This document shows positions 5,731-30,300 of a DNA stretch of 64,000 bases, piece after piece. This DNA is from Theocolax elegans. Taxonomy: Eukaryota > Arthropoda > Insecta > Hymenoptera > Cerocephalidae. Both the position numbers and the translations under genes were made by a program. Below the pieces are notes generated by a model. The model worked only from the letters and a program-made list of their open reading frames with translations, did not search any database and was not told where the DNA came from. The stretch is taken from the NCBI GenBank assembly GCA_026168455.1, contig JANSJX010000051.1, forward strand, positions 22,501-86,500, read 5' to 3'. Position 1 is the first letter of the stretch. Every line of letters begins with the position of its first letter.

Positions 5731-7034
5731 TATAATTAAAAACACAAAACAATGCAACATACAACACAAAATATGGCACATAAAACAAGGAATTACAATG
5801 GCCCTCGAACATAAAAAATTCGACATCTGTACGGAATTACGATCTTAATTATATCCAGAAATATCGCGTTTAAATAAGCAATACCATCATATAATATCTC
5901 AACAGTTGCCTTCATTTAAAACCCACTTTGTTTTGTTTGTTGTATTGTTCCTTGATTTATACTTAAAAACACAGAACAATGCAACATACAACACAAAAAA
6001 TGGCACATATGACAAGGAACTACAATGGACCTTGCACATAAAAAAATTCGACATCTGTACGAAATTACTCTCTTAATTATATACAGAAATATCACGTTTA
6101 ATTAAGCTATACCATCATGTAATATCTCAACAGTTGTTTTCATTAAAAGCCCACAATGTTTTGTTTGTTGTATTGTTCCTTGATTTATACTTAAAAACAC
6201 AGAACAATGCAACATACAACACAAAATATGGCACATATGACAAGGCATTACAATGGACCTTGCTCATACAAAATTCGACATCAGTACGGAATACTCTCTT
6301 AATTATATACAGAAATATCACGTTTATTTATGCTATACCATCATGTAATATCTCAACAGTTGTTTTCATTAAAAGCGCACCATGTTTTGTTTGTTGTATT
6401 GTTCCTTGATTTATAATTAAAAACACAAAACAATGCAACATACAACACAAAATATGGCACATATTACAAGGCATTATACAATGGACATTGCACATAAAAA
6501 ATTCGACATCAGTACGGAATTACGATCTTAATTATATCCAGAAATATCGCGTTTATGTAAGCAATACCATTATATAATATCTCAAAAGTTGCTTTTTTTC
6601 AAACCCACTTTGTTTTGTTTGTTGTATTGTTCCTTTATTAATAATTAAAAACACAGAACAATGCAACATACAACACAAAATATGGCACAAATGACAAGGA
6701 ATTACAATGGACCTCGCACATAAAAAATTCGACATCTGTACGGAATTACGATCTTAATTATATCCAGAAATATCGCGTTTATATAAGCAATACCATCATA
6801 TAATATCTCAAAAGTTGCTTTTTTTCAAACCCACTTTGTTTTGTTTGTTGTATTGTTCCTTGATTAATAATTAAAAACACAGAACAATGCAACATACAAC
6901 ACAAAATATGGCACAAATGACAAGGAATTACAATGGACCTCGCACATAAAAAATTCGACATCTGTACGGAATTACGATCTTAATTATATCCAGAAATATC
7001 GCGTTTATATAAGCAATACCATCATATAATATCT

Positions 7035-10000: not shown

Positions 10001-10668
10001 CATTTAAAACCCACTTTGTTTTGTTTGTTGTATTGTTCCTTGATTTATACTTAAAAACACAGAACAATGCAATATACAACACAAAATATGGCACATAAAA
10101 CAAGGAATTACAATGGCCCTCGAACATAAAAAATTCGACATCTGTACGGAATTACGATCTTAATTATATCCAGAAATATCGCGTTTAAATAAGCAATAAC
10201 ATCATATAATATCTCAACAGTTGCCTTCATTTAAAACCCACTTTGTTTTGTTTGTTGTATTGTTCCTTGATTTATACTTAAAAACACAGAACAATGCAAC
10301 ATACAACACAAAATATGGCACATATGACAAGGCATTACAATGACCCTCGAACATAAAAAATTCGACATCTGTACGGAATTACGATCTTAATTATATCCAG
10401 AAATATCGCGTTTATATAAGCAATACCATCATATAATATCTCAACAGTTGCCTTCATTTAAAACCCACTTTGTTTTGTTTGTTGTATTGTTCCTTGATTA
10501 ATACTTAAAAACACAGAACAATGCAACATACAACACAAAATATGGCACATAAAACAAGGAATTACAATGGCCCTCGAACATAAAAAATTCGACATCTGTA
10601 CGGAATTACGATCTTAATTATATCCAGAAATATCGCGTTTATATAAGCAATACCATCATATAATATCT
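7035..10668 (+). repeat. eight-monomer (1817-bp) higher-order repeat, two copies
   Basis: The segment from about 7035 to 8851 is repeated almost base for base from about 8852 to 10668 (offset 1817 bp, eight monomers). Private variants such as GTTCCCTGATTTATAC at ~7992 and ~9809 and TTGATTAATACTTAAAA at ~8676 and ~10493 keep the same offset. Confidence 0.85.
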
Positions 10669-13600
10669 CAACAGTTGCCTTCATTTAAAACCCACTTTAT
10701 TTTGTTTGTTGTATTGTTCCTTGATTTATACTTAAAAACACAGAACAATGCAACATACAACACAAAATATGGCACAAATGACAAGGAATTACAATGGACC
10801 TCGCACATAAAAAATTCGACATCTGTACGGAATTACGATCTTAATTATATCCAGAAATATCGCGTTTATATAAGCAATACCATCATATAATATCTCAACA
10901 GTTGCCTTCATTTAAAACCCACTTTGTTTTGTTTGTTGTATTGTTCCTTGATTTATACTTAAAAACACAGAACAATGCAATATACAACACAAAATATGGC
11001 ACATAAAACAAGGAATTACAATGGCCCTCGAACATAAAAAATTCGACATCTGTACGGAATTACGATCTTAATTATATCCAGAAATATCGCGTTTAATAAG
11101 CAATAACATCATATAATATCTCAACAGTTGCCTTCATTTAAAACCCACTTTGTTTTGTTTGTTGTATTGTTCCTTGATTTATACTTAAAAACACAGAACA
11201 ATGCAACATACAACACAAAATATGGCACATAATGACAAGGCATTACAATGGACCCTCGAACATAAAAAATTCGACATCTGTACGGAATTACGATCTTAAT
11301 TATATCCAGAAATATCGCGTTTATATAAGCAATACCATCATATAATATCTCAACAGTTGCCTTCATTTAAAATCCACTTTGTTTTGTTTGTTGTATTGTT
11401 CCTTGATTTATACTTAAAAACACAGAACAATGCAACATACAACACAAAATATGGCACATATGACAAGGAATTACAATGACCCTCGCACATAAAAAATTCG
11501 ACATCTGTACGGAATTACGATCTTAATTATATCCAGAAATATCGCGTTTATATAAGCAATACCATCATATAATATCTCAACATGTTGCCTTCTTTAAAAC
11601 CCACTTTGTTTTGTTTGTTGTATTGTTCCTTGATTTATACTTAAAAACACAGAACAATGCAACATACAACACAAAATATGGCACATATGACAAGGAATTA
11701 CAATGGACCTCGCACATAAAAAATTCGACATCTGTACGGAATTACGATCTTAATTATATCCAGAAATATCGCGTTTATATAAGCAATACCATCATATAAT
11801 ATCTCAACAGTTGCCTTCATTTAAAACCCACTTTGTTTTGTTTGTTGTATTGTTCCTTGATTTATACTTAAAAACACAGAACAATGCAACATACAACACA
11901 AAATATGGCACATAATGACAAGGAATTACAATGGACCTCGCACATAAAAAATTCGACATCTGTACGGAATTACGATCTTAATTATATCCAGAAATATCGC
12001 GTTTATATAAGCAATACCATCATATAATATCTCAACAGTTGCCTTCATTTAAAACCCACTTTGTTTTGTTTGTTGTATTGTTCCTTGATTTATACTTAAA
12101 AACACAGAACAATGCAACATACAACACAAAATATGGCACATAATGACAAGGAATTACAATGGACCTCGAACATAAAAAATTCGACATCTGTACGGAATTA
12201 CGATCTTAATTATATCCAGAAATATCGCGTTTATATAAGCAATACCATCATATAATATCTCAACAGTTGCCTTCATTTAAAACCCACTTTGTTTTGTTTG
12301 TTGTATTGTTCCTTGATTTATACTTAAAAACACAGAACAATGCAATATACAACACAAAATATGGCACATAAAACAAGGAATTACAATGGCCCTCGAACAT
12401 AAAAAATTCGACATCTGTACGGAATTACGATCTTAATTATATCCAGAAATATCGCGTTTATATAAGCAATACCATCATATAATATCTCAAAAGTTGCTTT
12501 TTTTCAAACCCACTTTGTTTTGTTTGTTGTATTGTTCCTTGATTAATAATTAAAAACACAGAACAATGCAACATACAACACAAAATATGGCACAAATGAC
12601 AAGGAATTACAATGGACCTCGCACATAAAAAATTCGACATCTGTACGGAATTACGATCTTAATTATATCCAGAAATATCGCGTTTAAATAAGCAATAACA
12701 TCATATAATATCTCAACAGTTGCCTTCATTTAAAACCCACTTTGTTTTGTTTGTTGTATTGTTCCTTGATTTATACTTAAAAACACAGAACAATGCAACA
12801 TACAACACAAAATATGGCACATAAAACAAGGAATTACAATGGCCCTCGAACATAAAAAATTCGACATCTGTACGGAATTACGATCTTAATTATATCCACA
12901 AATATCGCGTTTATGTAAGCAATACCATTATATAATATCTCAAAAGTTGCTTTTTTTCAAATCCACTTTGTTTTGTTTGTTGTATTGTTCCTTGATTAAT
13001 AATTAAAAACACAGAACAATGCAACATACAACACAAAATATGGCACAAATGACAAGGAATTACAATGGACCTCGCACATAAAAAAATTCGACATCTGTAC
13101 GGAATTACGATCTTAATTATATCCAGAAATATCGCGTTTAAATAAGCAATAACATCATATAATATCTCAACAGTTGCCTTCATTTAAAACCCACTTTGTT
13201 TTGTTTGTTGTATTGTTCCTTGATTTATACTTAAAAACACAGAACAATGCAACATACAACACAAAATATGGCACAAATGACAAGGAATTACAATGGACCT
13301 CGCACATAAAAAATTCGACATCTGTACGGAATTACGATCTTAATTATATCCAGAAATATCGCGTTTATATAAGCAATAACATCATATAATATCTCAACAG
13401 TTGCCTTCATTTAAAACCCACTTTGTTTTGTTTGTTGTATTGTTCCTTGATTTATACTTAAAAACACAGAACAATGCAATATACAACACAAAATATGGCA
13501 CATAAAACAAGGAATTACAATGGCCCTCGAACATAAAAAATTCGACATCTGTACGGAATTACGATCTTAATTATATCCAGAAATATCGCGTTTAAATAAG

Positions 13601-15477
13601 CAATAACATCATATAATATCTCAACAGTTGCCTTCATTTAAAACCCACTTTGTTTTGTTTGTTGTATTGTTCCTTGATTTATACTTAAAAACACAGAACA
13701 ATGCAACATACAACACAAAATATGGCACATATGACAAGGCATTACAATGACCCTCGAACATAAAAAATTCGACATCTGTACGGAATTACGATCTTAATTA
13801 TATCCAGAAATATCGCGTTTATCTAAGCAATACCATTATATAATATCTCAAATGTTGCTTTTTTTCAAATCCACTTTGTTTTGTTTGTTGTATTGTTCCT
13901 TGATTTATATTTAAAAACACAGAACAATGCAACATACAACACAAAAAATGGCACATATGACAAGGAACTACAATGGACCTTGCACATAAAAAAATTCGAC
14001 ATCTGTACGGAATTACGATCTTAATTATATCCAGAAATATCGCGTTTATATAAGCAATACCATCATATAATATCTCAACAGTTGCCTTCATTTAAAACCC
14101 ACTTTATTTTGTTTGTTGTATTGTTCCTTGATTTATACTTAAAAACACAGAACAATGCAACATACAACACAAAATATGGCACAAATGACAAGGACTTACA
14201 ATGGACCTCGCACATAAAAAATTCGACATCTGTACGGAATTACGATCTTAATTATATCCAGAAATATCGCGTTTATATAAGCAATACCATAATATAATAT
14301 CTCAACAGTTGCCTTCATTTAAAACCCACTTTGTTTTGTTTGTTGTATTGTTCCTTGATTTATACATAAAAACACAGAACAATGCAATATGCAACACAAA
14401 ATATGGCACATAAAACAAGGAATTACAATGGCCCTCGAACATAAAAAATTCGACATCTGTACGGAATTACGATCTTAATTATATCCAGAAATATCGCGTT
14501 TATATAAGCAATACCATCATATAATATCTCAAAAGTTGCTTTTTTTCAAACCCACTTTGTTTTGTTTGTTGTATTGTTCCTTGATTAATAATTAAAAACA
14601 CAGAACAATGCAACATACAACACAAAATATGGCACAAATGACAAGGAATTACAATGGACCTCGCACATAAAAAATTCGACATCTGTACGGAATTACGATC
14701 TTAATTATATCCAGAAATATCGCGTTTAAATAAGCAATAACATCATATAATATCTCAACAGTTGCCTTCATTTAAAACCCACTTTGTTTTGTTTGTTGTA
14801 TTGTTCCTTGATTTATACTTAAAAACACAGAACAATGCAACATACAACACAAAATATGGCACATAAAACAAGGAATTACAATGGCCCTCGAACATAAAAA
14901 ATTCGACATCTGTACGGAATTACGATCTTAATTATATCCACAAATATCGCGTTTATGTAAGCAATACCATTATATAATATCTCAAAAGTTGCTTTTTTTC
15001 AAATCCACTTTGTTTTGTTTGTTGTATTGTTCCTTGATTTATATTTAAAAACACAGAACAATGCAACATACAACATAAAATATGGCACAAATGACAAGGA
15101 ATTACAATGGACCTCGCACATAAAAAATTCGACATCTGTACGGAATTACGATCTTAATTATATCCAGAAATATCGCGTTTATATAAGCAATACCATCATA
15201 TAATATCTCAACAGTTGCCTTCATTTAAAACACACTTTGTTTTGTTTGTTGTATTGTTCCTTGATTTATACTTAAAAACACAGAACAATGCAACATACAA
15301 CACAAAATATGGCACATAAAACAAGGAATTACAATGGCCCTCGAACATAAAAAATTCGACATCTGTACGGAATTACGATCTTAATTATATCCAGAAATAT
15401 CGCGTTTATGTAAGCAATACCATTATATAATATCTCAAAAGTTGCTTTTTTTCAAATTCACTTTGTTTTGTTTGTTG

Positions 15478-17200
15478 TGTCACGTCCAGACTTGCACCAA
15501 TCACTATAAAAAATATTACAAGAAGGCAAATGGTTAATAAACCATTCGCGTTCCTTTCGCTCTTGTTTGACTAGGACTAGCCTTACGTCTCCGGGAGTAG
15601 CGAGCGAAGTTATTTTGAGAGTAGAGATGCAGGATATAATGCGGGATAAATAAAATAATATATGTTTTATTTCGTATTAATTATGCATTATTTATTTAAA
15701 TATAATATGCTGCTTTCCTTTAAATGAACAAGTGTGACTAAATTATTACAGCTTTTTATGGGCAAAAACACATAAAATTACACTATTTTATTAACAATTG
15801 TATAAAATTATTTAAGTCGAATAACTATTAATTTTGATTGAATAAACAAGTGTACGGCGAACACATTAACACATTATAGAATAAAAGATATACAAGGTTT
15901 TTTAATTATAAACATTAATAATCGAAATAAGAATTATTATAAATAAATGCAGATTTAATTAAAAATTGTTGTCGTTTTAAACATGAATTATTGTTAATAA
16001 AGTGTATTTCAAACCGCGAATATTGCAAATTAAATGCAATACAACGTATAATTATTATAAATAAATTGTAATATATAATAATAATTGTTATAAAAGAAAA
16101 CGGTTGGTTCAGCAATCGAAATAACATAAAATATCAGGTTGCCTTTACGAATAATACAAGCGTATAGATAGCCGAAAAGAATATACCTTAAGTACCCAAA
16201 TATATAGATATATATGTATATATATATATATATGTGTGTATATTCGGTGAGGAACGAAGGTCCGCCTTGAACGTGGGTAGCGGTGTCAGATTGCCGTATA
16301 ATGTCCTGCTAGACCTGCGGGCGTCGACGTTAGATGTGTATGCTGTTGGAGCTCGACGATTTCCAGATGTCGAAGTCGTAGTTCCTCGACTATGGCTTGT
16401 AGATGTCAATGATACGTCTCGATTCCTCTTGTGATTTTCAATACGTATTACTTAAAAGTTCAAGTAGCAGAGCCACGCCCTCGAATAAAAATCAAAGAGT
16501 TGTCCAGCAGAGCTTCGCCTTGCGAAAGCTTTAGATGAAAATTTAGGAGTGCCTGTGTCTGTTCTGGGTCCTCTTTATATACCCTAAAATCTATGCATCT
16601 CTCCTTGTCTTACACTTCTTCCTTGTCTTACACTTTGCCTTATATGGAGATGTGTAAGTAGTTCTCGATTTTTCTGTGCTTGCACCCGATTGGACCGTTA
16701 GATGTGCGTAATTAAAAATTATCGAATCCCGTGCATTTTCTGTATCGCTTCGTAGTTAATTCGGAGAATTTGCTGTCCGTTCTTTTATTACTGCGACATT
16801 ATCCAGAGAACGGCTTAATTTATTACTTCCTTCTAATGCTTGAATTTTCTAGTCCATGTTTCCCATCGCCGGTTCTTCTCCGAGCATTGATTTTATAGTG
16901 CAGTACAAAAAAAAACTCTTGCGCAACCCTTCATTTCGATCTCACTATCGGTGATCCCGCTTATATGCGTACAGGCTTCGAATAATATCTTCAACTCTAC
17001 TTATCCGTCTCTTTTTCGTTTGAAACACTCGTGAATTAATCGGTCCCTTAGCTCTATAAATTATATTTTATATTACTGCATTTACTTAGAACTATTCTTT
17101 ATCAACCTTATTTCGTTTTTCTCCCACGCCGTAATTTTATTCTAAACTACACAGTACTTTTTACGAAAAATAATAATATAATTTTCGTCGGGACGCGACA
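15478..17200 (-). repeat. 3' LTR of the envelope/IAP retroelement (1723 bp)
   Basis: Read on the minus strand it begins TGTCGCGTCC and ends GGACGTGACA, so the ends form a 10-bp inverted repeat with one mismatch and have the TG...CA boundaries of an LTR. The left edge abuts satellite exactly. The right (U3) edge is preceded on the minus strand by a polypurine tract. A TATA box lies at 16574-16581, and AATAAA signals on the minus strand lie at about 15665, 15690 and 15786, giving a U3-R-U5 order. Only this LTR is present, so the assignment rests on end structure, tract and gene context. No second copy is available for comparison in this window. Confidence 0.78.
16545..16581 (-). promoter_or_regulatory. 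LTR core promoter (TATA)
   Basis: On the minus strand the LTR contains GGGTATATAAAGAGG with the TATA at 16574-16581. Transcription would start about 30 bases downstream, near 16545-16550, defining U3 as roughly 17200-16550. A second weaker TATA-like site (CTATAAAATC) lies on the same strand near 16890. Start-site position is inferred. Confidence 0.55.
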
Positions 17201-17215
17201 ACTCCCCCCCTTTTT
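17201..17215 (-). other. polypurine tract next to the LTR
   Basis: Minus-strand sequence AAAAAGGGGGGGAGT runs directly into the LTR start TGTCGCG. An uninterrupted purine run abutting the 5' end of an LTR is the plus-strand primer site of LTR retroelements and fixes the element's orientation as minus. Confidence 0.8.
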
Positions 17216-18195
17216 AAAAACGACGCCCTCGTCGTTAAACAATATAATTATTATATTATTATTTCTCTTGACATAAGATATCATACTTAATTTTAAATTA
17301 TAAACATTATTTCGATTAATTTTTCTTTATTTCTTATGGTGAACTTTATAAACCATATTACAATTATTTATTTCGTAGTTCAATTTCGTTTGTTATTATG
17401 TTACATACTTCGAGTACATTATTTCAAACAGTTTAACAGTATTGATATAATTCACCTATACAAATAGATGCGTAATAAAAAGAGTTTTATTATTACAATT
17501 TATTATAGATATTCCGAAAAATTGTATAATTATTATTAAATGTGTTTTCTATAGTTAACAAAAAAAAATTTATTTATCTTTAGTTTGTACCCTTAATTTT
17601 TAGTATACATCAAGTCATGTTAAAAATATGTGTTACTAATATATTTTTTTTTCTCGTAGCCATATTTTTTTTACAAAATTTTCAATTTTCTTCTATAATA
17701 TTTGTATGCTTACATATATATTTTCTAAAAAGTCAAAGAAAAGAGTTAGATATTAGTTTCCGTTTTTTTTTTACATTTATTCAATTAATAAATCTTACTA
17801 TTACGAATTGTTGAAGAGAGAAAAATAAATTTTCTTGTTCTTATACAATATAGGTTCTCCCTTCAATGTGAACAATGTTAGTATGTCTTATCTTAATAAT
17901 ATATGTATATATTTTATTTTATTTTATGAAAGGATTAGGAGTGAAGAAAAATTAATTTTCTTCGCTCCCCCTCCTTCCCTCTGAAATGTAACGAAAACGT
18001 TGAATATATCTATTCAAGGCTTTCGTTATGAGTTTTCCTCTCGGCTATTATAAACAAGGAATCACTTTGACTTATTTATTACTCTCGAGTACCCCTCCTA
18101 GTTCTGTCAATACTAAACGTTTTCGTTGGTCGCTTGAATTTTTTTTTCAAGTAATCTTTTATACCCTAGTAAATTATTTTCCCTTAGTGCGATAA
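17216..18195. other. AT-rich non-coding stretch of the retroelement
   Basis: No credible gene seen. Very AT-rich with long T runs on the plus strand. It lies between the polypurine tract and the promoter of the antisense gene, and would form part of the long 3' untranslated region of minus-strand transcripts. Confidence 0.6.
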
Positions 18196-18201
18196 GGTTT
18201 T

Positions 18202-18239
18202 ATTTAAATACGGGTGGTTCCTTGCGTTTTTTCGTCAGT
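18202..18239 (+). promoter_or_regulatory. promoter of the antisense acidic gene
   Basis: TATTTAAATA at 18201-18210 is followed about 30 bp later by an arthropod-type initiator TCAGT at 18235-18239. A first exon would run 18237-18298 and end at the donor GTAAGT (18299). Spacing and orientation match a TATA/Inr core promoter; use of the site is inferred. Confidence 0.5.
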
Positions 18240-18551
18240 ATTCGTCAAGCAGTGACTATCTTCGTTTCTCCAAGGTCTCTCCTCTCTATTTTTACTAAGT
18301 AAGTGTTTTTATTATTATTATTTTTATTATCATCTCGTTTTGTTGCCTATTATTATTATCTCTTTTTTTTTTTTACTAGTTCTAACAAGGAAAAATAGCG
18401 TACCCCTTATATAAGAGAATATTTATTTTTTTCCACGCATATTATTTTTTCTTTCAAATAAAAATTTGCTTTTGTCGTTAAGGTTCTGTTATATATTTCT
18501 TTGTGTGTGTTTTATTTTTATTTCTCTAATATATTATTTTTTTTTTCCAGG

Positions 18552-19025
18552 ATGAATTTTGAAAAGGCACGTCTATTGATGCAGTGGGCTATACGCCAAC
18601 GAAACGATCGGGAATTTAGTCCCGATTTATTTGAAGCTCGGAGCTGGTTTTTAGCCGCTGCTCAGGAGCTAAATGTTTTATGTATAAACGAAGGGGTCCC
18701 ACTGGATGTGGACACCCTGCTGCTGTTACTCAATTTATCTCTACGAGAACTTGCGGCCCTATCAGAATTACCTGCGAGCTCCGAGGTTTCAAATTCATCA
18801 TTCTCGTCCGAGGAGGAAATGGATGAGGGGGAGTTGGAGGCGATGGAGGTGGAGGAGGAGGAGGAGGAGGAGGAGGAGGAGGAGGAGGAGGTGGAGGTGG
18901 TGGCACTGGAGGAAGATCCGTCGCCGAGGTCGCCCTCGCCAGAGCAGGTGTCTGACGTTCCGGCCTCATTTTACTGGCCATCCGACGGGGAGGATCTCCC
19001 TGCTATTCTCCAGTGCCGCGAATGA
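18552..19025 (+). CDS. acidic protein, spliced, antisense to the envelope/IAP genes
   Basis: A 157-residue protein of unknown function. The start is the ATG at 18552, two bases after a strong splice acceptor: a long T tract ending CCAG at 18550. It pairs with a donor GTAAGT at 18299, giving a 252-bp intron in the 5' leader. The N-terminal ~75 residues look globular and mostly helical, with leucine runs. Residues from about 85 on are Ser/Glu-rich, with an almost pure glutamate tract encoded by a GGA/GAG microsatellite, followed by a Ser-Pro-rich segment. No membrane segment or signal peptide. An N-terminal folded part with an acidic tail is compatible with a transcription regulator or chromatin-binding accessory factor, but no family was recognised. 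It lies between the IAP gene and the 3' LTR and reads in the opposite direction. It may be an accessory gene of the retroelement or captured host sequence. Confidence 0.6.
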   Translation: MNFEKARLLMQWAIRQRNDREFSPDLFEARSWFLAAAQELNVLCINEGVPLDVDTLLLLLNLSLRELAALSELPASSEVSNSSFSSEEEMDEGELEAMEVEEEEEEEEEEEEEVEVVALEEDPSPRSPSPEQVSDVPASFYWPSDGEDLPAILQCRE

Positions 19026-19186
19026 TAGAAATTATAGATATATCATCCGAGGCTGAATTGTAATCGGATTTGTGCTGTTTGTATTGTCACAAAAAAAATT
19101 TTTAATAGGGAATTAAACTCGTTTGTATAGTTCTTAATAGAGTGTTTTATTTTTCCCCTTTTTCATTCCCTTCCTCATTCACCTGG
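19026..19186. other. 3' flank of the acidic gene
   Basis: Short non-coding stretch. The weak AATTAAA at about 19110 is the only polyadenylation-like signal seen downstream of the acidic ORF. Confidence 0.3.
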
Positions 19187-19541
19187 AGAGAGAGAGAGAG
19201 TGTGTGTGTGAGGAGAGAGAGATGAGAGAGAGGAGAGATGAGAGAGAGAGACGAGTGGGAGAGAGGAGAGAGAAGGGAGAGAGAGAGAGAGTGAGAGAGA
19301 GAGAGAGAGTGAGAAGATGGAGAGAGAGGAGGAGGAGGAGTGGAGAGAGAGAGAGGAGAGAGGAGAGAGTGAGAGAGAGAGGATGAGAGGAGAGAGACGA
19401 TGCGAGAGAGAGAGAGAGTGAAGAGGAGAGAGAGGAGAGAGAGAGAGAGAGTTGAGAGAGGAGAGAGAGTGAGAGAGAGAGAGAGAGAGAGTGAGAGAGA
19501 GAGAGAGAGGGAGAGAGAGAGAGATGAGGAGAGAGAGAGAT

Positions 19542-19590
<49 letters not shown>
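19187..19590. repeat. (GA)n microsatellite, ~400 bp
   Basis: Imperfect GA/GAGG/GAGT simple repeat over about 400 bases, ending in an almost pure (GA) run at 19545-19590. Long open frames through it on both strands (Arg/Glu-rich or Ser/Leu-rich) are artefacts of composition. Confidence 0.95.
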
Positions 19591-19593
<3 letters not shown>

Positions 19594-19795
19594 CGAAATG
19601 TCGACACTGCAACGCATGGTCGGCCCCGCCAACCTTGTCAGGCTTGAGTCGGAGAGTGGCCCGAACACTTACGAGGCCAGCCGATGCTCCTACAGCTTAG
19701 CGCAGCAACTAGGCTCGAATTGCGGTGTGCAATCGAATCTTTACGGGGGATCCAAATTTCGTTCTCCACCGCGCTGCTCCATCGTCCTTTCTTTT
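19591..19795. other. GC-rich island of unknown origin
   Basis: About 200 bp with clearly higher GC content than the surrounding element. It is directly adjacent to the GA microsatellite and followed by T-rich sequence. It has no convincing reading frame of its own. The character resembles structural RNA or spacer DNA, but I could not match it to an rRNA or tRNA by eye. Confidence 0.35.
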
Positions 19796-20254
19796 TGTTT
19801 ACATTTTTTTTTCTTTATTATATTTTTCTCTATTTCTTACCTATTTTATTTTACTTTTTTTTTTATTTATTTTAGCTCTACCCCTTTTTTTATGGATACT
19901 TATTTACTTTGTTAGTATTTCTATATATTACTCTGTATTATTTTTTTTACGTTATTTACATTTATTAATATTTTTACCACAATAATTGTTTGTTTTTTTT
20001 TTTTTATATCTACATATGGTTAGGGGAAAGAAATAAATATTCCTTATTGTTCTATAACAATGTTAATCTTTATTATTTTTCATTTTGTATACATATTTTT
20101 TTTTTTGTTTGTATTTACTATAACTAGTTAGTATATATACTTGTATATAATGGGTGCTTGTTAATATTTTATACTCTTGTTTATACTTATTATAATATTT
20201 ACTGCAATTGTATATTTTGCCCTTTTCATAAATTTATTGTTGTATAGATTTAAT
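19796..20254. other. T-rich non-coding stretch downstream of the IAP gene
   Basis: Nothing recognisable; very T-rich on the plus strand. Open frames here are low-complexity Phe/Leu/Ile-rich shadows. In the minus orientation this is the 3' flank of the IAP-like gene. Confidence 0.5.
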
Positions 20255-21604
20255 TTAGGCGAATTCTATCTCGGTGAAGCGACCTCTTCTTTTTGTTACT
20301 AAATATATGTTTAACCATTCCGTTATTTCTCTTTTACAAATCATGCATTCCTTTGTTCCCATATAACAAGTTAAACAGCTTAAAGCATGTTTACATGGGA
20401 GATATATTCCCTCTATTGGATTACGTTTGCAAATCTTGCATTTAAGATCTTTTGATAAATTGGCATGTTCCGAACCTTTTATTATTTTGCTCAATTTTTC
20501 CATGTCATAGATTCCACAACAGTCTTCTGCTCGTTCTTTTTTTGTAATGTATTCACATTTTGGCGACCATTTACGATGTTCTTGCATAGGCTCGTCCGTT
20601 TTTTCCCATTTTCGTATTCCTACACCGCATATATAGCATTTTACTTTGTCGTTCTCTCCTGTATAATAAAATCCGGCTTCTGCTAGGTCTTCGGTTGAAA
20701 TAAAAGCATGCGGCCAATATTTAAAGGTATCTAATCGATTTTTCTTTATTGACAGATTTACTCCGCAATCAGTTTCATCGAAGTCCTGTTGTAGGTCCAT
20801 AATTATTTCTTTTACTTTCTCTTCTGTATCATTATAAACTACCTCGTCTAGTTGAGTTTCTAAGGACGCTAATATCTCTAATATTTCTGGTAACTCTTCT
20901 TGTGTTATCATTGACACGGGGGTATTATTTTCTTCGTCCAGCATTGAGGGAAAAATATCACTGGTCGCGCTTTGTAATAATTCCATAACTTCTTGTTCAT
21001 TCAGAAAGGATTCCAATTCCGGCCAGCTTACTTCCTTAGCGTTTTGTGATTCTGCGATATCTTCTGATTTTTTGTCTTTATGTATTTCCATAGGTTCCGT
21101 TTGCGTCATTTTTGAACTTGAAGTTCCCATTTCCTCTGGTTTTTCAATATCTGTTTCGTTTTTAACAACAAAAATGGGCGCTTCGTGTTGTATTGGTTCC
21201 AACGGAATAATTTGCTGGTTATCTCTCTGTAATTCGAATTCATTTTTTATAGTAACAATCTCGATTTCTCTTTCTTTGTTTCGTTCTATTATTGCCCTAA
21301 TTCGAGTGGATATTTTATTATCATTTTTTTTTATTTTTTGCTCCTCGATATTTTTTTTACAGTTATAACATTTTTGCCTCTCGGAATTTATATTTATGTC
21401 TCTAAATTTAATGTGTTGTATAATCGGCTTTCCTGCCTTTGTTTCTATGCAATTTCCACATAAAGGAGTGTTCAAGTCTATGCTGTAAAACATCCTTTTA
21501 AGGTAATACATTTCGTGTATTTTTCTATTGGTTTGTTTTTTTCTAATCGTACCGTCGTAAGAGGGTAAATTTTTCCTTTCTTTAACTTCTTGTATAATCC
21601 TCAT
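20255..21604 (-). CDS. IAP-like protein: one BIR domain plus C-terminal RING finger
   Basis: A 449-residue protein starting at a true ATG. Residues ~291-353 form a BIR domain with the exact CX2CX16HX6C zinc signature (Cys323, Cys326, His343, Cys350) and the usual aromatic/Gly-rich stretch before it. Residues ~389-423 form a RING finger (Cys389, Cys392, Cys404, His406, Cys410, Cys413, Cys420, Cys423), close to the C-terminus as in inhibitor-of-apoptosis proteins. RING IAPs act as E3 ubiquitin ligases and block caspases or their activators in the cytoplasm; that role is inferred here. The N-terminal ~290 residues are unusual: two CX2C pairs (49/52 and 79/82), then a charged, acidic, coiled or disordered linker. 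The start lies 55 bp after the glycoprotein stop. A pyrimidine-rich splice acceptor ends at 21617, 12 bases before the ATG, suggesting its own spliced mRNA. Gene capture by the retroelement is inferred from position. Confidence 0.9.
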   Translation of the reverse strand: MRIIQEVKERKNLPSYDGTIRKKQTNRKIHEMYYLKRMFYSIDLNTPLCGNCIETKAGKPIIQHIKFRDININSERQKCYNCKKNIEEQKIKKNDNKISTRIRAIIERNKEREIEIVTIKNEFELQRDNQQIIPLEPIQHEAPIFVVKNETDIEKPEEMGTSSSKMTQTEPMEIHKDKKSEDIAESQNAKEVSWPELESFLNEQEVMELLQSATSDIFPSMLDEENNTPVSMITQEELPEILEILASLETQLDEVVYNDTEEKVKEIIMDLQQDFDETDCGVNLSIKKNRLDTFKYWPHAFISTEDLAEAGFYYTGENDKVKCYICGVGIRKWEKTDEPMQEHRKWSPKCEYITKKERAEDCCGIYDMEKLSKIIKGSEHANLSKDLKCKICKRNPIEGIYLPCKHALSCLTCYMGTKECMICKREITEWLNIYLVTKRRGRFTEIEFA

Positions 21605-21615
21605 TTACTGGCTCT

Positions 21616-21650
21616 CCTATTTTGAGTGTAAGCAAAAAAAAAGAAAATAA
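21616..21650 (-). promoter_or_regulatory. probable splice acceptor for the IAP mRNA
   Basis: On the minus strand a long pyrimidine tract (TTTTCTTTTTTTTTGCTTACACTC begins near 21650; mostly T) is followed by AAAATAG, with the AG at 21618-21617, just before the IAP ATG at 21604 and inside the 55-bp gap after the glycoprotein stop. The donor would lie in the missing 5' part of the element. Confidence 0.5.
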
Positions 21651-21659
21651 GAGTTATTA

Positions 21660-23645
21660 TTACATTGAATTTGCTCTGTTCTCATTGTTTATTTTTAAAA
21701 TTGGATATAAACACGATTCTCTCTCTAAAATTTTTGTATCTATAGTTTTAAACTCGGAAGTGATAAATTGGCTCTTTTCATTTTTCTCTATCTCAACCTC
21801 CATTTTTTTGTTCTCCTTATTGTCTTTATTTAACTTTTGCGTTCCCAAATAAAGTAATAGTTGTGTGATTGAATTCCATATTGCCCCAATTAAATGTAAA
21901 GAGAACCCGTAAATTCCGTGCAGCATGAAACCATGCATAATCGTATCGATAATTAGCTTGATGAGACGACATATCATAAAAAATCCTATGACACCGGCAG
22001 AGATGTTACTGAACGTTAAAAATTCCGACCATAGTTTGTTGAATGTCGATTCAGCCAGGTTATTTAAGGCTTCTTGGTCGAACAAATTTCCTATAGTAAT
22101 TCCTTTGGGGTTTATCTTCCTTCCCGAAGCTCCTAATGCCATCTTATTTAATACCGTAGATTTTTCTAATGGGAATAATATCATATCGCGAAGTTTACTG
22201 GTATCCTTTTGTCCGTATATTCCACTAGTAGCGAGTGTCTCGGGTGAAACATATCTCCATGTTAGTTTTGTTTGAGGCGTCAATATCTCGGGATCTTTTA
22301 CTTCGACTGGATTCGGTAGCATTTTAAACCAAATTTGATGCATTTTGAACATAACCGGTAGACGATTATCACACATTAGGGGTTTCCCAGTTCTTACTAA
22401 TATACGCGTTCTAGGTGTGAGAAAATATGGTTCGTTGTCCCGAAACACGGGTAGCTGTTCGTAACACCCCGTCGTTTCCCTCCCGACTACTTCTACTTTT
22501 AAGCATTTTAGTAGATGAATAACTTCTCCCGCTGTTACGGCTAGATACCCTGGTTGATTCATGATACGATAACCCACTTCCGCCGGGGAAACTGAGGCGA
22601 GCGCGAGGGCTTGAGTGAGAATATGTCTTTCGATTTCGCACCTTTGTTTTAATATATCGTAATACATTCTATTTAGCTGTCGGCGTACATATTTTTCAAC
22701 GTATAAGAATTTTGAGTTTATGTATGCAAATATATCAAGGTTGTTTCCCTCAATTGCTTTTTTGCTTATAAAACTGTTAACCTTGGCGTCCTCAATTATG
22801 AAAAGCTTGGGATGTTCGGTGCGCGCAAACCTAAAGCCGCATACATTCTGTTCTCCTTTTTTCCATAGTGCGAATGTAATATCATTAGTTTCAAGCGAAT
22901 ACATTATACGGTTTTCTTGCTCTTCATATATTTTATCCAAATTTCCTTCATACAACACCGAATATTTGTTAACTCCGCATGAATCCTCCGGAAGCGCTTC
23001 CCAAAAAACTTGTGAGGCATCAATATCTGTACATTCTAAATCCGCGAGTGTGCATGTAACTCCAGAGTCTAGTCTTACTTTATTATATTCCAGATGTACA
23101 GCCGCATAGTAATCGTATATTGTTATTTCAACATGACCTGCGACATAGGCGTCTTTATAGGTACCGTATGAATCCGAAAATGAACCTCCAATACAATTTC
23201 CGTTATTATCGTTCCCTCCCGCGAACACGATTGGCTTATTAGTGGTACTGTTTCTGGGTAGATTTATAATTTGAGTGCCGCTTATAGAAATGTAACCCGA
23301 ACGATGGATTCCATAACATTCCTCTCTACTTATTTCTTTGTAATAACTAATTTCTCCGTTTAGGACGCGAGATGCATGTCCGTGCATACCGCAATGTGTA
23401 ACTGTACGTGTGATTTTTATTATGCATTTATATACATGCGTGGTACTGTAATCGTTCAATTGTAGTAACTGCGCGTAAACTTTTGTTACATTAATATATG
23501 GTTCATGTATATCACATTCTTTAACATCCACTAATGATATTGTTGTTAGATTTGAAAGTTGTTCCCCGCAGTCATATCCGTAAAGTCCCGATGAATAATT
23601 AATTACACTCACGAGTGAAAGCAGAAGGAATGATCTCTTTGCCAT
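21660..23645 (-). CDS. chuvirus-like (Mivirus-type) envelope glycoprotein
   Basis: A 661-residue, apparently intact class I membrane glycoprotein. Residues 1-20 form a signal peptide. The mature N-terminus (YDCGE, then an N-linked site and ISL-DV-EC pattern) and overall size match glycoproteins of chuviruses and their relatives captured by insect LTR elements. The ectodomain has many cysteines and several NXS/T sites (for example 32, 52, 131). Hydrophobic segments at ~549-567 and ~575-600 precede a Lys/Glu-rich cytoplasmic tail of ~60 residues. Chuvirus glycoproteins are membrane-fusion proteins; a role in particle entry or cell-to-cell spread is inferred. The ATG at 23645 follows directly after a splice acceptor, as for retroviral env genes. 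Upstream (minus) lies a second envelope-type gene with a 70-bp gap, downstream the IAP gene. Alternative: a domesticated host fusion gene; the LTR and neighbours favour an element gene. Confidence 0.85.
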   Translation of the reverse strand: MAKRSFLLLSLVSVINYSSGLYGYDCGEQLSNLTTISLVDVKECDIHEPYINVTKVYAQLLQLNDYSTTHVYKCIIKITRTVTHCGMHGHASRVLNGEISYYKEISREECYGIHRSGYISISGTQIINLPRNSTTNKPIVFAGGNDNNGNCIGGSFSDSYGTYKDAYVAGHVEITIYDYYAAVHLEYNKVRLDSGVTCTLADLECTDIDASQVFWEALPEDSCGVNKYSVLYEGNLDKIYEEQENRIMYSLETNDITFALWKKGEQNVCGFRFARTEHPKLFIIEDAKVNSFISKKAIEGNNLDIFAYINSKFLYVEKYVRRQLNRMYYDILKQRCEIERHILTQALALASVSPAEVGYRIMNQPGYLAVTAGEVIHLLKCLKVEVVGRETTGCYEQLPVFRDNEPYFLTPRTRILVRTGKPLMCDNRLPVMFKMHQIWFKMLPNPVEVKDPEILTPQTKLTWRYVSPETLATSGIYGQKDTSKLRDMILFPLEKSTVLNKMALGASGRKINPKGITIGNLFDQEALNNLAESTFNKLWSEFLTFSNISAGVIGFFMICRLIKLIIDTIMHGFMLHGIYGFSLHLIGAIWNSITQLLLYLGTQKLNKDNKENKKMEVEIEKNEKSQFITSEFKTIDTKILERESCLYPILKINNENRANSM

Positions 23646-23662
23646 CTGTAAATAAGATAATT
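23646..23662 (-). promoter_or_regulatory. splice acceptor immediately before the glycoprotein ATG
   Basis: Minus-strand TTATCTTATTTACAG ends exactly at the base before the ATG (AG at 23647-23646). It would place the glycoprotein start as the first codon of a spliced exon, the normal arrangement for env mRNAs of LTR elements. Confidence 0.6.
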
Positions 23663-23715
23663 TTCTATGGTTTTCATTGTCCTTGTATGAAGTTATGAAG
23701 TTAATTCCTATTTGT

Positions 23716-24318
23716 TTATTCGAAACGGATTTCTATTTCTTCCGGAATGGTATCTAATATTTCTTTAAAGTAACACAAAAGTATGAAGATCCCCGCGATG
23801 AATAAAAATATAACTACTCCTGTGATTGAACAGATGAGAAACAATGTAGTGAATACAGCGGTTTTTTCCGTATTGATCAATTTATCCCTACAGTAATTCT
23901 CCATATCCCAAAAATTCCCCGAATGTTTTTGCTTAACTAGTTTATGGAATAAATTTTTAGTATTTGTATTGTTAAAGATATTTGATAGTTCGCTAATGTT
24001 TAACGACGTCTGAGGGAATAACAAGTGATTTGAGTATTCCGTTGGTACCTCATGTATTTTTATAACTTCTCCATTTATTTTAAACGTACAATTTATTTTT
24101 GTGTGTATTATTCCGACTCCACGTAACGGTATGATCGTTCCTGTTAAACCGTCACAGCCAATCGACACTCTCGTAGTCATGGGCGCTGAGTATAATATTT
24201 TATTTAATTTTTCAAGTTTTATTATCGTTGGTTTGGCATTGGTTTTATATTTGATATTGCAGTTACGGTAATTACATATAGCCGGTTGAGACATCAATTC
24301 CGTTTCGCATATATATAA
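23716..24318 (-). pseudogene. C-terminal part of an F/errantivirus-type envelope protein, 5' truncated
   Basis: The frame opens only at the satellite junction (a stop codon within the satellite at 24321-24319) and runs to a stop at 23716, about 200 codons. The first ATG is at 24294, but coding character, including a cysteine codon, continues upstream of it, so the true N-terminus is lost. The segment has spaced cysteines, then a pattern (Cys, hydrophobic, Arg-Gly-Val-Gly-Ile-Ile, Cys ~20 residues later) like the membrane-proximal part of baculovirus-F/errantivirus envelope proteins. A ~30-residue transmembrane helix (about residues 147-176 of the 193-codon portion) and a short acidic tail follow. 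Proteins of that family are fusion proteins on virions. Family call is by pattern only. The gene is not complete here and its missing part would lie 5' in the intact element. Confidence 0.55.
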
Positions 24319-24321
24319 TTA
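24298..24321. other. junction: truncated retroelement to inverted satellite
   Basis: Element coding sequence ends within ATATATAT and changes to satellite (TATATAATTAAGAGAGTAA). The short shared TATATA could be microhomology. No LTR, primer-binding site or target duplication is present on this side, so the element is broken rather than bounded. Confidence 0.8.
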
Positions 24322-27300
24322 AGAGAGTAATTTCGTACAGATGTCGAATTTTTTATGTGCAAGGTCCATTGTATAATGCCTTGTCATATGTGCCATATTT
24401 TGTGTTGTATGTTGCATTGTTCTGTGTTTTTAATTATAGATCAAGGAACAATACAACAAACAAAACATGGTGGGCTTTTAATGAAAACAACTGTTGAGAT
24501 ATTACATGATGGTTTAACTTACATAAACGCGAGATTTCTGGATATAATTAGATCCTAATTCCGTACAGATAACGATTTTTTTATATGCAATGTCCATTGT
24601 AATTCCTTGTCATATGTGCCATATTTGGTGTTGTAGGTTGCATTGTTTTGTGTTTTTAATTATTAATCAAGGAACAATACAACAAACAAAACATGGTGGG
24701 CTTTTAATGAAAACAACTGTTGAGATATTACATTATGGTATAGCTTAAATAAACGCACTGTTTTTGGATATAATTAAGAGTGTAATTCTGTACAGATGTC
24801 GAATTTTTTATGTGCAAGGTCCATTGTAATGCCTTGTCATATGTGCCATATTTTGTGTTGTATGTTGCATTGTTCTGTGTTTTTAAGTATAAATCAAGGA
24901 ACAATACAACAAACAAAACAAAGTGGGTTTTAAATGAAGGCAACTGTTGAGATATTACAAGATGGTATAGCTTAAATAAACGTGATATTTCTGTATATAA
25001 TTAAGAGAGTAATTCCGTACTGATGTCTAATTTTTTATGTGCAAGGTCCATTGTATAATGCCTTGTAATATGTGCCATATTTTGTGTTGTATGGTGCATT
25101 GTTTTGTGTTTTTAATTATAAATCAAGGAACAATACAGCAAACAAAACATGGTGGGCTTTTAATGAAAACAGCTGTTGAGATATTACATGATGGTATAGC
25201 TTAAATAAACATAATATTACTCTATATAATTAAGAGAGTAATTTCGTACAGATGTCGAATTTTTTATGTGCAAGGTCCATTGTATAGTGCCTTGTAATAT
25301 GTGCCATATTTTGTGTTGTATGTTGTATTGTTTTGTGTTTTTAATTATAAATCAAGGAACAATACAACAAACAAAACATGGTGGGATTTTAATGAAAACA
25401 GCTGTTGAGATATTACATGATGGTATAGCTTAAATAAACATAATATTACTGTATATAATCAAGAGAGTATTCCGTACAGATGTCGAATTTTTTATGTGCA
25501 AGGTCCATTGTATAGTGCCTTGTAATATGTGCCATATTTTGTGTTGCATGTTGCATTGTTTTGTGTTTTTAATTATAAATCAAGGAACAATACAACAAAC
25601 AAAACAAAGTGGATTTGAAAAAAAGCAACTTTTGAGATATTATATAATGGTATTGCTTACATAAACGCGATATTTGTGGATATAATTAAGATCGTAATTC
25701 CGTACAGATGTCGAATTTTTTATGTTCAAGGGCCATTGTGATTCCTTGTTTTATGTGCCATATTTTGTGTTGTATGTTGCATTGTTCTGTGTTTTTAAGT
25801 ATAAATCAAGGAACAATACAACAAACAAAACAAAGTGGGTTTTAAATGAAGGCAACTGTTGAGATATTATATGATGGTATTGCTTATATAAACGCGATAT
25901 TTCTGGATATAATTAAGATCGTAATTCCGTACAGATGTCGAATTTTTTATGTGCGAGGTCCATTGTAATTCCTTGTCATTTGTGCCATATTTTGTGTTGT
26001 ATGTTGCATTGTTCTGTGTTTTTAAATATAAATCAAGGAACAATACAACAAACAAAACAAAGTGGGTTTTAAATGAAGGCAACTGTTGAGATATTATATG
26101 ATGGTATTGCTTATTTAAACGCGATATTTCTGGATATAATTAAGATCGTAATTCCGTACAGATGCCGAATTTTTTATGTGCGAGGTCCATTGTAGTTCCT
26201 TGTCATATGTGCCATTTTTTGTGTTGTATGTTGCATTGTTCTGTGTTTTTAAATATAAATCAAGGAACAATACAACAAACAAAACAAAGTGGATTTGAAA
26301 AAAAGCAACTTTTGAGATATTATATAATGGTATTGCTTACATAAACGCGATATTTGTGGATATAATTAAGATCGTAATTCCGTACAGATGTCGAATTTTT
26401 TATGTTCGAGGGCCATTGTAATTCCTTGTTTTATGTGCCATATTTTGTGTTGTATGTTGCATTGTTCTGTGTTTTTAAGTATAAATCAAGGAACAATACA
26501 ACAAACAAAACAAAGTGGGTTTTAAATGAAGGCAACTGTTGAGATATTATATGATGGTATTGCTTATATAAACGCGATATTTCTGGATATAATTAAGATC
26601 GTAATTCCGTACAGATGTCGAATTTTTTATGTGCAAGGTCCATTGTATAATGCCTTGTAATATGTGCCATATTTTGTGTTGTATGGTGCATTGTTTTGTG
26701 TTTTTAATTATAAATCAAGGAACAATACAACAAACAAAACATGGTGGGCTTTTAATGAAAACAGCTGTTGAGATATTACATGATGGTATAGCTTAAATAA
26801 ACATAATATTACTCTATATAATTAAGAGAGTAATTTCGTACAGATGTCGAATTTTTTATGTGCAAGGTCCATTGTATAGTGCCTTGTAATATGTGCCATA
26901 TTTTGTGTTGTATGTTGCATTGTTTTGTGTTTTTAATTATAAATCAAGGAACAATACAACAAACAAAACATGGTGGGATTTTAATGAAAACAGCTGTTGA
27001 GATATTACATGATGGTATAGCTTAAATAAACATAATATTACTGTATATAATTAAGAGAGTAATTTCGTACAGATGTCGAATTTTTTATGTGCAAGGTCCA
27101 TTGTATAGTGCCTTGTAATATGTGCCATATTTTGTGTTGCATGTTGCATTGTTTTGTGTTTTTAATTATAAATCAAGGAACAATACGACAAACAAAACAA
27201 AGTGGGTTTTAAATGAAGGCAACTGTTGAGATATTACAAAATGGTATAGCTTAAATAAACGTGATATTTCCGTATATAATTAAGAGAGTAATTCCGTACT

Positions 27301-30300
27301 GATGTCTAATTTTTTATGTGCAAGGTCCATTGTATAATGCCTTGTATTATGTGCCATATTTTGTGTTGTATGGTGCATTGTTTTGTGTTTTTAATTATAA
27401 ATCAAGGAACAATACAACAAACAAAACATGGTGGGCTTTTAATGAAAACAGCTGTTGAGATATTACATGATGGTATAGCTTAAATAAACATAATATTACT
27501 CTATATAATTAAGATCGTAATTCCGTACAGATGTCGAATTTTTTATGTGCGAGGTCCATTGTAATTCCTTGTCATTTGTGCCATATTTTGTGTTGTATGT
27601 TGCATTGTTCTGTGTTTTTAAATATAAATCAAGGAACAATACAACAAACAAAACAAAGTGGATTTGAAAAAAAGCAACTTTTGAGATATTATATAATGGT
27701 ATTGCTTACATAAACGCGATATTTATGGATATAATTAAGATCGTAATTCCGTACAGATGTCGAATTTTTTATGTGCGAGGTCCATTGTAATTCCTTGTCA
27801 TTTGTGCCATATTTTGTGTTGTATGTTGCATTGTTCTGTGTTTTTAATTATTAATCAAGGAACAATACAACAAACAAAACAAAGTGGATTTGAAAAAAAG
27901 CAACTTTTGAGATATTATATAATGGTATTGCTTACATAAACGCGATATTTTTGGATATAATTAAGATCGTAATTCCGTACAGATGTCGAATTTTTTATGT
28001 TCGAGGGCCATTGTAATTCCTTGTTTTATGTGCCATATTTTGTGTTGTATGTTGCATTGTTCTGTGTTTTTAAGTATAAATCAAGGAACAATACAACAAA
28101 CAAAACAAAGTGGGTTTTAAATGAAGGCAACTGTTGAGATATTATATGATGGTATTGCTTATATAAACGCGATATTTCTGGATATAATTAAGATCGTAAT
28201 TCCGTACAGATGTCGAATTTTTTATGTGCGAGGTCCATTGTAATTCCTTGTCATTTGTGCCATATTTGTGTTGTATGTTGCATTGTTCTGTGTTTTTAAA
28301 TATAAATCAAGGAACAATACAACAAACAAAACAAAGTGGGTTTAAATGAAGGCAACTGTTGAGATATTATATGATGGTATTGCTTATTTAAACGCGATAT
28401 TTCTGGATATAATTAAGATCGTAATTCCGTACAGATGTCGAATTTTTATGTGCGAGGGTCCATTGTAATTCCTTGTCATTTGTGCCATATTTTGTGTTGT
28501 ATGTTGCATTGATATTTCTGGATATAATTAAGATCGTAATTCCGTACAGATGTCGAATTTTTTATGTGCGAGGTCCATTGTAATTCCTTGTCATTTGTGC
28601 CATATTTTGTGTTGTATGTTGCATTGTTCTGTGTTTTTAATTATTAATCAAGGAACAATACAACAAACAAAACAAAGTGGGTTTGAAAAAAAGCAACTTT
28701 TGAGATATTATATGATGGTATTGCTTATATAAACGCGATATTTCTGGATATAATTAAGATCGTAATTCCGTACAGATGTCGAATTTTTTATGTTCGAGGG
28801 CCATTGTAATTCCTTGTTTTATGTGCCATATTTTGTGTTGTATATTGCATTGTTCTGTGTTTTTAAGTATAAATCAAGGAACAATACAACAAACAAAACA
28901 AAGTGGGTTTTAAATGAAGGCAACTGTTGAGATATTATATGATGGTATTGCTTATATAAACGCGATATTTCTGGATATAATTAAGATCGTAATTCCGTAC
29001 AGATGTCGAATTTTTTATTTGCGAGGTCCATTGTAATTCCTTGTCATTTGTGCCATATTTTGTGTTGTATGTTGCATTGTTCTGTGTTTTTAAATATAAA
29101 TCAAGGAACAATACAACAAACAAAACAAAGTGGATTTGAAAAAAAGCAACTTTTGAGATATTATATAATGGTATTGCTTACATAAACGCGATATTTCTGG
29201 ATATAATTAAGATCGTAATTCCGTACAGATGTCGAATTTTTTATGTTCGAGGGCCATTGTAATTCCTTGTTTTATGTGCCATATTTTGTGTTGTATGTTG
29301 CATTGTTCTGTGTTTTTAAGTATAAATCAAGGAACAATACAACAAACAAAACAAAGTGGGTTTTAAATGAAGGCAACTGTTGAGATATTATATGATGGTA
29401 TTGCTTATTTAAACGCGATATTTCTGGATATAATTAAGATCGTAATTCCGTACAGATGTCGAATTTTTTATGTGCGAGGTCCATTGTAATTCCTTGTCAT
29501 TTGTGCCATATTTTGTGTTGTATGTTGCATTGTTCTGTGTTTTTAATTATTAATCAAGGAACAATACAACAAACAAAACAAAGTGGGTTTGAAAAAAAGC
29601 AACTTTTGAGATATTATATGATGGTATTGCTTATATAAACGTGATATTTCTGTATATAATTAAGAGAGTATTCCGTACTGATGTCGAATTTTTTATGTTC
29701 GAGGGCCATTGTAATTCCTTGTTTTATGTGCCATATTTTGTGTTGTATGTTGCATTGTTCTGTGTTTTTAAGTATAAATCAAGGAACAATACAACCAATA
29801 CAACAAACAAAACAAAGTGGGTTTGAAAAAAAGCAACTTTTGAGATATTATATAATGGTATTGCTTACATAAACGCGATATTTCTGGATATAATTAAGAT
29901 CGTAATTCCGTACTGATGTCGAATTTTTTATGTGCAATGTCCATTGTATAATGCCTTGTAATATGTGCCATATTTTGTGTTGTATGTTGCATTGTTCTGT
30001 GTTTTTAATTATAAATCAAGGAACAATACAACAAACAAAACATGGTGCGCTTTTAATGAAAACAACTGTTGAGATATTACATGATGGTATAGCATAAATA
30101 AACGTGATATTTCTGTATATAATTAAGAGAGTATTCCGTACTGATGTCGAATTTTTTATGAGCAAGGTCCATTGTAATGCCTTGTCATATGTGCCATATT
30201 TTGTGTTGTATGTTGCATTGTTCTGTGTTTTTAAGTATAAATCAAGGAACAATACAACAAACAAAACATGGTGGGCTTTTAATGAAAACAACTGTTGAGA

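Follow-up and report, generated by a model that had tools for sequence, protein, structure and literature searches.

Two envelope-type genes, an IAP-like gene and an antisense gene in the probable 3′ end of a large Ty3/Gypsy element of Theocolax elegans

The DNA analyzed here (the window) is a stretch of 64,000 nucleotides (nt) of contig JANSJX010000051.1 of the hymenopteran Theocolax elegans; positions 15478–24312 of this window hold the 3′ part of a long terminal repeat (LTR) element that is truncated, with satellite DNA in place of its 5′ part. Read along the minus strand, the block carries the final third of a gene for an F-type envelope, a gene for a 661-residue glycoprotein, a gene for a 449-residue protein with BIR and RING domains that resembles inhibitors of apoptosis (IAPs), a polypurine tract and a 1,723-bp LTR, while a small acidic protein is encoded on the opposite strand. 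An earlier note, written from the sequence of the window, had named each of these parts, and all of them hold up in the features given below; only its end for the block, 24318, had to be moved, as the satellite already begins at 24313. Nonsynonymous-to-synonymous ratios (pN/pS) compare the window with its copies elsewhere in the genome, and aa denotes amino acids.

1..15477, no strand: array of a 227-bp satellite, abutting the LTR end
15478..17200, minus: 3′ LTR, 1,723 bp, TGTCGCGTCC...GGACGTGACA, with TG...CA ends and a 10-nt imperfect terminal inverted repeat
17201..17215, minus: polypurine tract AAAAAGGGGGGGAGT, directly before the LTR, identical in copies A and B
17201..18068, minus: 3′ untranslated region (UTR), common to a ~14-kb sibling form at 88% identity
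18203..18239, plus: candidate core promoter, TATA-like TTTAAATA (18203) and initiator-like TCAGT (18235)
18299..18550, plus: candidate 252-nt 5′UTR intron, GTAAGTG...CAG
18552..19025, plus: acidic antisense protein, 157 aa, isoelectric point 4.05, with a glutamate run; ATG at 18552; pN/pS 0.25
19112..19117, plus: possible polyadenylation signal ATTAAA
19186..19590, no strand: GA microsatellite between the two converging genes, where the alignment with other copies breaks
20255..21604, minus: IAP-like protein, 449 aa, BIR at residues 290–353 and C-terminal RING at residues 386–429; pN/pS 0.28
21605..21660, minus: pyrimidine tract and acceptor-like AG shortly before the IAP ATG
21660..23645, minus: chuvirus-type (glycoprotein B (gB)-like, class III) fusion glycoprotein, 661 aa, complete; PF24664; pN/pS 0.21
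23646..23665, minus: acceptor-like TTATCTTATTTACAG abutting the glycoprotein ATG, kept in all 13 other copies whose aligned row reaches the ATG
23716..24312, minus: baculovirus-F-type envelope, C-terminal third; PF12259, 5.8e-7; cut by the satellite at 24313
24313..39574, no strand: the 227-bp satellite in opposite orientation, replacing the 5′ part of the element

Because both flanks of the block are one 227-bp satellite in opposite orientations, the window copy appears to have been either rearranged or misjoined in assembly after insertion. That the broken end and the inverted flanks are an assembly misjoin, with no biological rearrangement behind them, is a reading to be taken seriously: besides the orientation of the flanks, the contig is small, at 131,875 bases, and a near-identical LTR and acidic gene stand on another small contig, C663. 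The latter pair (C663:4195-7724) is possibly the missing part of the window copy or a duplicate of it. The element itself would be real either way.

The genome searched comprises 658 Mb in 1,277 contigs, of which the seven large ones are named C1–C7, and it holds a family of related copies. The window block is very probably the truncated 3′ end of a Ty3/Gypsy endogenous-retrovirus-like element of 23–24 kb. Copy A spans 7,090,350 to 7,113,540 of C5 (23,191 bp, target duplication AACA) and copy B spans 25,085,860 to 25,109,879 of C4 (24,020 bp, GTGT); a third copy lies at 40.0 Mb of C1 (CCTT). The ends of 13 copies were examined, and the three with both outer ends covered all possess paired TG...CA LTRs in the same orientation, a polypurine tract and a 4-bp target duplication; the other ten are truncated, interrupted or only partly covered. 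The earlier note had taken the block for the 3′ half of a complex retrovirus-like element and had proposed a search for full copies with gag-pol, a second LTR and target duplications; such copies are present in this genome and carry the same genes. The window LTR is ~98% identical to both LTRs of copy A. Kimura two-parameter distances between the LTRs of six copies are 0.0012 (A), 0.0017 (B), 0.0044, 0.0089, 0.011–0.016 and 0.0276, the last four computed over partial LTRs; with LTR pairs that differ by 0.1–2.8%, the family has therefore moved recently.

Pieces of these copies supply the genes that the window lacks. The gag frame runs over 733 codons and contains a CCHC knuckle that passes the Pfam cut-off, and the pol frame runs over 1,697 codons between stops, or 1,623 if counted from the first start listed, with domains in the order protease, reverse transcriptase, RNase H and integrase; the reverse transcriptase, RNase H and zinc-binding integrase domains pass the Pfam cut-offs. 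The solved structure nearest to pol is that of Ty3 (4.3e-100); an ‘enzymatic polyprotein’ (9.2e-53), a caulimovirus name, comes next, ahead of retroviral reverse transcriptases. An assignment to BEL/Pao, the group that had been offered as the known case, was rejected on these pol domains and this nearest structure, both of which are Ty3/Gypsy. Between pol and the F gene lies an open reading frame (ORF) of 236 aa, hereafter ORF236. The pol-to-F stretch was read in copies L009, L010 and L011; L009 contains 100 consecutive N, and its pol and ORF236 frames are split up. Repeats of 90 nt (30 aa) lie inside the pol ORF upstream of the reverse transcriptase (L010:2125-2453), and a 73-bp minisatellite follows pol in L011 and L009. 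The composite order is LTR – gag – pol – ORF236 – F – glycoprotein – IAP – antisense acidic gene – polypurine tract – LTR.

The glycoprotein matches the Monjiviricetes fusion profile PF24664 at 6.4e-220 over profile positions 5–648 of 653. Its AlphaFold model (mean predicted local distance difference test score, pLDDT, 72.6) finds herpesvirus gB as the nearest PDB entry (best 5.1e-13), with low template modelling scores of 0.15–0.33 among the best 50 matches listed, and, in BFVD, the glycoprotein of a chu-related virus (3.4e-46). The full-length profile match and the gB-like predicted fold together argue for a Monjiviricetes/chuvirus-type class III protein. In a tree of 24 rows it groups with Trichogramma and nameless sequences (95/96) and then with Trichomalopsis (100/100), on a branch apart from ants, bees and the sawfly. 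This placement makes a parasitoid wasp the likely host. A bee gene model, P0119, presents a related glycoprotein fused to Gypsy RNase H domains; scans of viral contigs with the glycoprotein, its alignment and the IAP-like protein returned no relatives. In the genome search, 67 of 1,560 first-look candidates were scored, and the locus counts given here are lower bounds; with 1,560 candidates, more related glycoproteins may exist in the genome.

The F-type envelope is complete in copy L010, where a gene of 563 aa stands directly before the glycoprotein gene, and it falls within stop-free frames of 587 codons in L009 and 595 codons in L011. Two pieces of F match neighbouring stretches of the Baculo_F profile (2.7e-10 and 3.3e-7), and an F-type envelope gene downstream of pol, a feature of errantiviruses, is thus present. 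The 563-aa F of L010, the one copy inspected for it, is devoid of the furin motif R-x-K/R-R, and its fusion activity is doubtful for this reason. It could plausibly be that F has lost fusion and serves attachment or interference only, with entry left to the chuvirus-type glycoprotein, so that the element would represent an envelope replacement in progress rather than a two-envelope machine; the missing cleavage motif fits this proposal, as do the full profile match and gB-like fold that the glycoprotein retains. Against it stand the reading frames of F, open in all three copies, and the acceptor-like site CTTTTTCAG that precedes F in L010, where the acceptor-like sequence before the F ATG reads CTTTTACTTTTTCAG.

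Downstream of the glycoprotein, the 449-aa protein contains one BIR (2.4e-24) and a RING (1.1e-9). All zinc ligands of both domains are intact in the window, and of 28 loci compared at these 12 positions, three show one change each; a BIR and a C-terminal RING with every ligand in place argue for membership of the IAP (BIRC) family. The best single-domain PDB match is to BIRC2/cIAP1 constructs (80.8 bits, 4.3e-22), presumably the third BIR of that protein, with whose peptide-groove residues the element BIR appears to agree. The E-values of NAIP chains are lower (2.6e-43), as the scores of their several BIRs are summed, and the fly protein ‘Apoptosis 1 inhibitor’ is matched at 8.7e-20. Four host BIRs have identities of 45, 48, 39 and 48% to the element BIR, the fourth across 48 columns. 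Since BIRs of unrelated proteins in the database reach up to 51%, the host BIRs are no closer than these, and the element BIR is not a recent copy of the four genes. A protein database search with the whole IAP-like sequence gave four matches, each over 16–18% of the query only. Within the genome, with 94 of 309 first-look candidates scored, at least 106 matches were found on C1–C7 and several small contigs, at least 20 of which, the window copy included, are near full length and without a stop.

On the opposite strand, the 157-aa protein comprises 43 acidic and 9 basic residues. Its only Pfam match is Myc_N, over the acidic run, with no match to TRP28 or bZIP, and a protein search with residues 1–84 yielded 16 candidates, none at an E-value up to 10. 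The genome holds 113 matches (all 139 candidates scored), the best 35 of which are all stop-free; most full-length matches end at residue 150, and the last seven residues of the window protein may hence be a private end. L044, the only copy examined that covers the promoter, keeps 56 of 59 bases of the promoter block (18180–18238), 51 of 61 positions in exon 1 and 198 of 242 in the intron, with 41 gap columns, and with them the TATA-like and initiator-like elements, the donor and the acceptor; its acidic gene differs from the window at 31% of silent sites. The acceptor is also kept in L048. About six copies of the acidic gene, mostly ~600 nt apart, stand in tandem at C1:25085095-25089002; the matched stretches are 50–83% identical to the window protein, and no IAP stands in the expected place within 17 kb.

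The genes of the block travel together. An IAP follows on the same strand, no more than 6 kb downstream, at 59 of 68 merged glycoprotein loci (at 29 of them no more than 100 nt away), and at the remaining nine no IAP lies within 6 kb in another arrangement. For 71 of 88 merged IAP loci, the next 17 kb downstream contain an opposite-strand acidic gene (for 47 of them the next 3 kb already do), as opposed to a single locus with an acidic match within 17 kb on any other side or in any other orientation. The bond is imperfect: the acidic gene is missing from its place at 17 of the 88 IAP loci, and the IAP from its place at 32 of 102 merged acidic loci, the tandem array on C1 among them. The acidic gene is often more diverged from the window than the adjoining IAP and glycoprotein genes, which suggests recombination between lineages.

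All three genes are under purifying selection. Comparison of the window with 26 glycoprotein, 28 IAP and 16 acidic loci, one of which (L002) is in each case the window itself, gave in-frame pN/pS values of 0.21, 0.28 and 0.25; the acidic value is 0.22 when codons 96–136, around the glutamate run, are left out. In the two other forward frames the ratios were 0.87–1.56 for the glycoprotein, 0.69–1.22 for the IAP and 0.96–1.36 for the acidic gene, and in the one reverse frame whose third positions coincide they were 0.34, 0.36 and 0.51.

A sibling form of ~14 kb has its LTR, gag and pol in common with the large element; at least six LTR pairs lie 12.2–13.1 kb apart, with 40 of 2,438 first-look places scored. 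Of these six pairs, one 3′ half was read, that of L038: it holds the last half of pol (99.4% aa identity), the 73-bp minisatellite, ~850 nt without a match and the 3′UTR, and searches of it at E-values up to 1e-4 detected none of ORF236, F, glycoprotein, IAP and acidic gene. The 5′ half of another sibling, L039, holds gag (98.8%) and pol (95.5%). The cassette that distinguishes the large element measures ~9 kb when summed from two copies. It is thus bounded by the minisatellite on one side and by window position 18068 on the other, which places the antisense promoter inside it. Such a sibling, its one 3′ half free of the cassette, would be expected if the cassette genes were functionless passengers copied by an active gag-pol element. 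We consider this improbable and reject it on the in-frame pN/pS values: selection on the three cassette genes is specific to their frames, the best acidic matches are free of stops, and promoter and splice sites are kept in L044.

Baculoviruses and other insect DNA viruses typically carry IAP and F-type proteins, which speaks for an integrated large DNA virus that adjoins an LTR by coincidence; this is very improbable, and is refuted by paired LTRs with target duplications that enclose the block and by the gag-pol that copies of this family carry. A host origin, with the IAP and acidic genes in single copy beside a solo LTR, for which we found no point in favour and which the earlier note would have recognized by the genes standing alone at one locus, has next to no probability given 88 merged IAP and 102 merged acidic loci, many of them linked, on seven large and several small contigs.

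Several observations besides the missing furin motif weigh against the reading as a Ty3/Gypsy endogenous-retrovirus-like element and against its proposed working. The gene order was pieced together from different copies and is read through in no single one. Two expected domains fall below their Pfam cut-offs, Retrotrans_gag (19.1 bits, cut-off 24.1) and, by a small margin, the integrase core (31.9 bits, cut-off 32.6); the full-length F, its first 200 residues and one other piece give no Baculo_F match; ORF236 has no confident fold or family (mean pLDDT 43); copy A (L008) carries a changed zinc ligand in the IAP RING; and the element BIR is at most 48% identical to the four host BIRs. Directly after the 5′ LTR, copies A and B possess no tRNA-type primer site (TGG) and instead GATTGTATTAATTATTATAATAAATTTGGT, an AT-rich stretch identical in both (L012, L014). 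Self-priming or internal-tRNA priming may take its place, and a 12-nt self-complement, which may be fortuitous, lies within the LTR. The Ty3/Gypsy assignment is kept despite this primer-site failure because pol, LTR and target duplication fit.

Taken together, a model for the element can be proposed. The LTR would drive a full-length RNA for Gag-Pol and for packaging, and splicing to acceptors beside the F, glycoprotein and IAP start codons would yield sub-genomic messages; the acceptor-like sequences just before the three sense genes resemble the layout of spliced retroviral env messages, a likeness that may in part be due to chance. One or both envelope proteins could let particles enter other cells, perhaps the germline from the soma, as errantiviruses do. 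The BIR of the IAP may bind caspases or their antagonists and the RING may mark them with ubiquitin, so that infected cells stay alive. From its own promoter, the acidic protein may regulate transcription or silencing of the element, and the siblings without the cassette, with the same LTR and gag-pol, might move without it or in its particles. We infer these entry, cell-survival and regulatory roles from sequence. Tentatively, then, the element would be an arthropod ‘complex retrovirus’ with an F-type class I and a chuvirus/gB-type class III glycoprotein, a cell-saving IAP, the accessory ORF236 and an antisense regulator with its own promoter, and would mobilize an env-less, helper-dependent sibling.

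The remainder of the window holds other repeats. A different Ty3/Gypsy-type element occupies 45514–53695 (gag ORF 50001–52097, pol ORF 46474–50031), with 300-nt repeats at 45514 and 53396 that are 100% identical and lie within a larger duplication (44857 and 61526). A reverse transcriptase fragment (RVT_1, 3.2e-10) lies at 39559–40056, satellite-like pieces near 54936–55135 and 62967–63166, and, at 59379–60189, an inverted repeat of 186 nt, perfect and with its arms 7 nt apart, one arm recurring 392 nt further on. An Rfam scan of 15–25 kb of the window at curated thresholds gave no match.

As a rule, a single envelope gene and at most a few accessory genes are described for insect LTR elements. 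The present element is of the env-bearing Gypsy type, and its gene set in this form is unmatched in the literature examined; new are the separate envelope genes of two types, the RING-bearing IAP and the selected antisense gene. That young copies in one genome combine two entry-type proteins, a likely cell-death inhibitor and an antisense gene under selection suggests an ability of insect retroelements to evolve gene sets as layered as those of complex retroviruses. It also allows a test of whether mobile elements need to prevent apoptosis in the cells that they invade.

Errantiviruses, such as Drosophila gypsy, possess a Ty3/Gypsy pol, an F-type envelope after pol, an acceptor before env and a 4-bp target duplication; the element shares all of these, the acceptor as an acceptor-like site. 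Unlike them, it is about three times longer, adds ORF236, the chuvirus-type glycoprotein, the IAP and the antisense gene, and shows no tRNA-type primer site in copies A and B. The position of the antisense gene, between pol and the 3′ LTR, and its proposed role as a regulator of the element recall HBZ of human T-cell leukemia virus 1 (HTLV-1) and plant Retand Gypsy elements, for which the available portion of PMC11963269 gives antisense ORFs between pol and LTR as the rule. In contrast to both, the acidic protein shows no TRP28 or bZIP match and its gene has a candidate 5′UTR intron; unlike that of HBZ, its candidate promoter lies outside the LTR, ~1 kb inside the LTR edge.

As to the glycoprotein, Anakin of mosquitoes is likewise an LTR retroelement with a captured chuvirus glycoprotein, though its pol is BEL/Pao and the excerpt of PMC7642597 mentions no IAP, F or antisense gene. 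In mosquito PIWI-interacting RNA clusters, PMC13172572 mentions Gypsy elements that bear type III fusion glycoproteins; its accessible text does not mention a second envelope or an IAP and uses ‘apoptosis’ 0 times. Hymenopteran endogenous viral elements (EVEs) with glycoproteins of the same group often have Gypsy fragments alongside, according to the sections at hand of PMC10084718 and PMC6540820, and the survey PMC10084718 reports there no clear evidence of capture by Gypsy. The paired-LTR elements described here differ in that they show such capture in a hymenopteran, the case sought by that survey, with the mosquito elements of PMC13172572, as far as its text is available, as prior art.

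The earlier note went too far in its statement that an element with an added IAP and a second glycoprotein had not been described. The planarian Burro/GYPSM1 elements, in the part of PMC6431247 that was available, are giant Gypsy elements present in thousands of copies, whose single polyprotein of 4,873 aa includes a BIR, a BCL2-like and an env region; the homology of the latter is to gypsy Env, with further matches to mononegavirus fusion proteins. Apart from this BIR, no retroelement with an IAP gene, and no precedent closer than Burro, was found among the open-licence papers listed by the searches. By gene content, as given in that part, the two are alike as giant Gypsy LTR elements with gag-pol, BIR, env and apoptosis- or ubiquitin-related domains; Burro differs in its single polyprotein, in an env placed between gag and pol, and in BCL2, TRAF and other additions, whereas the T. 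elegans element has separate ORFs after pol, two envelope genes, a BIR and RING in one IAP and a spliced antisense gene. Side by side, the two suggest that giant Gypsy elements have recruited BIR proteins more than once.

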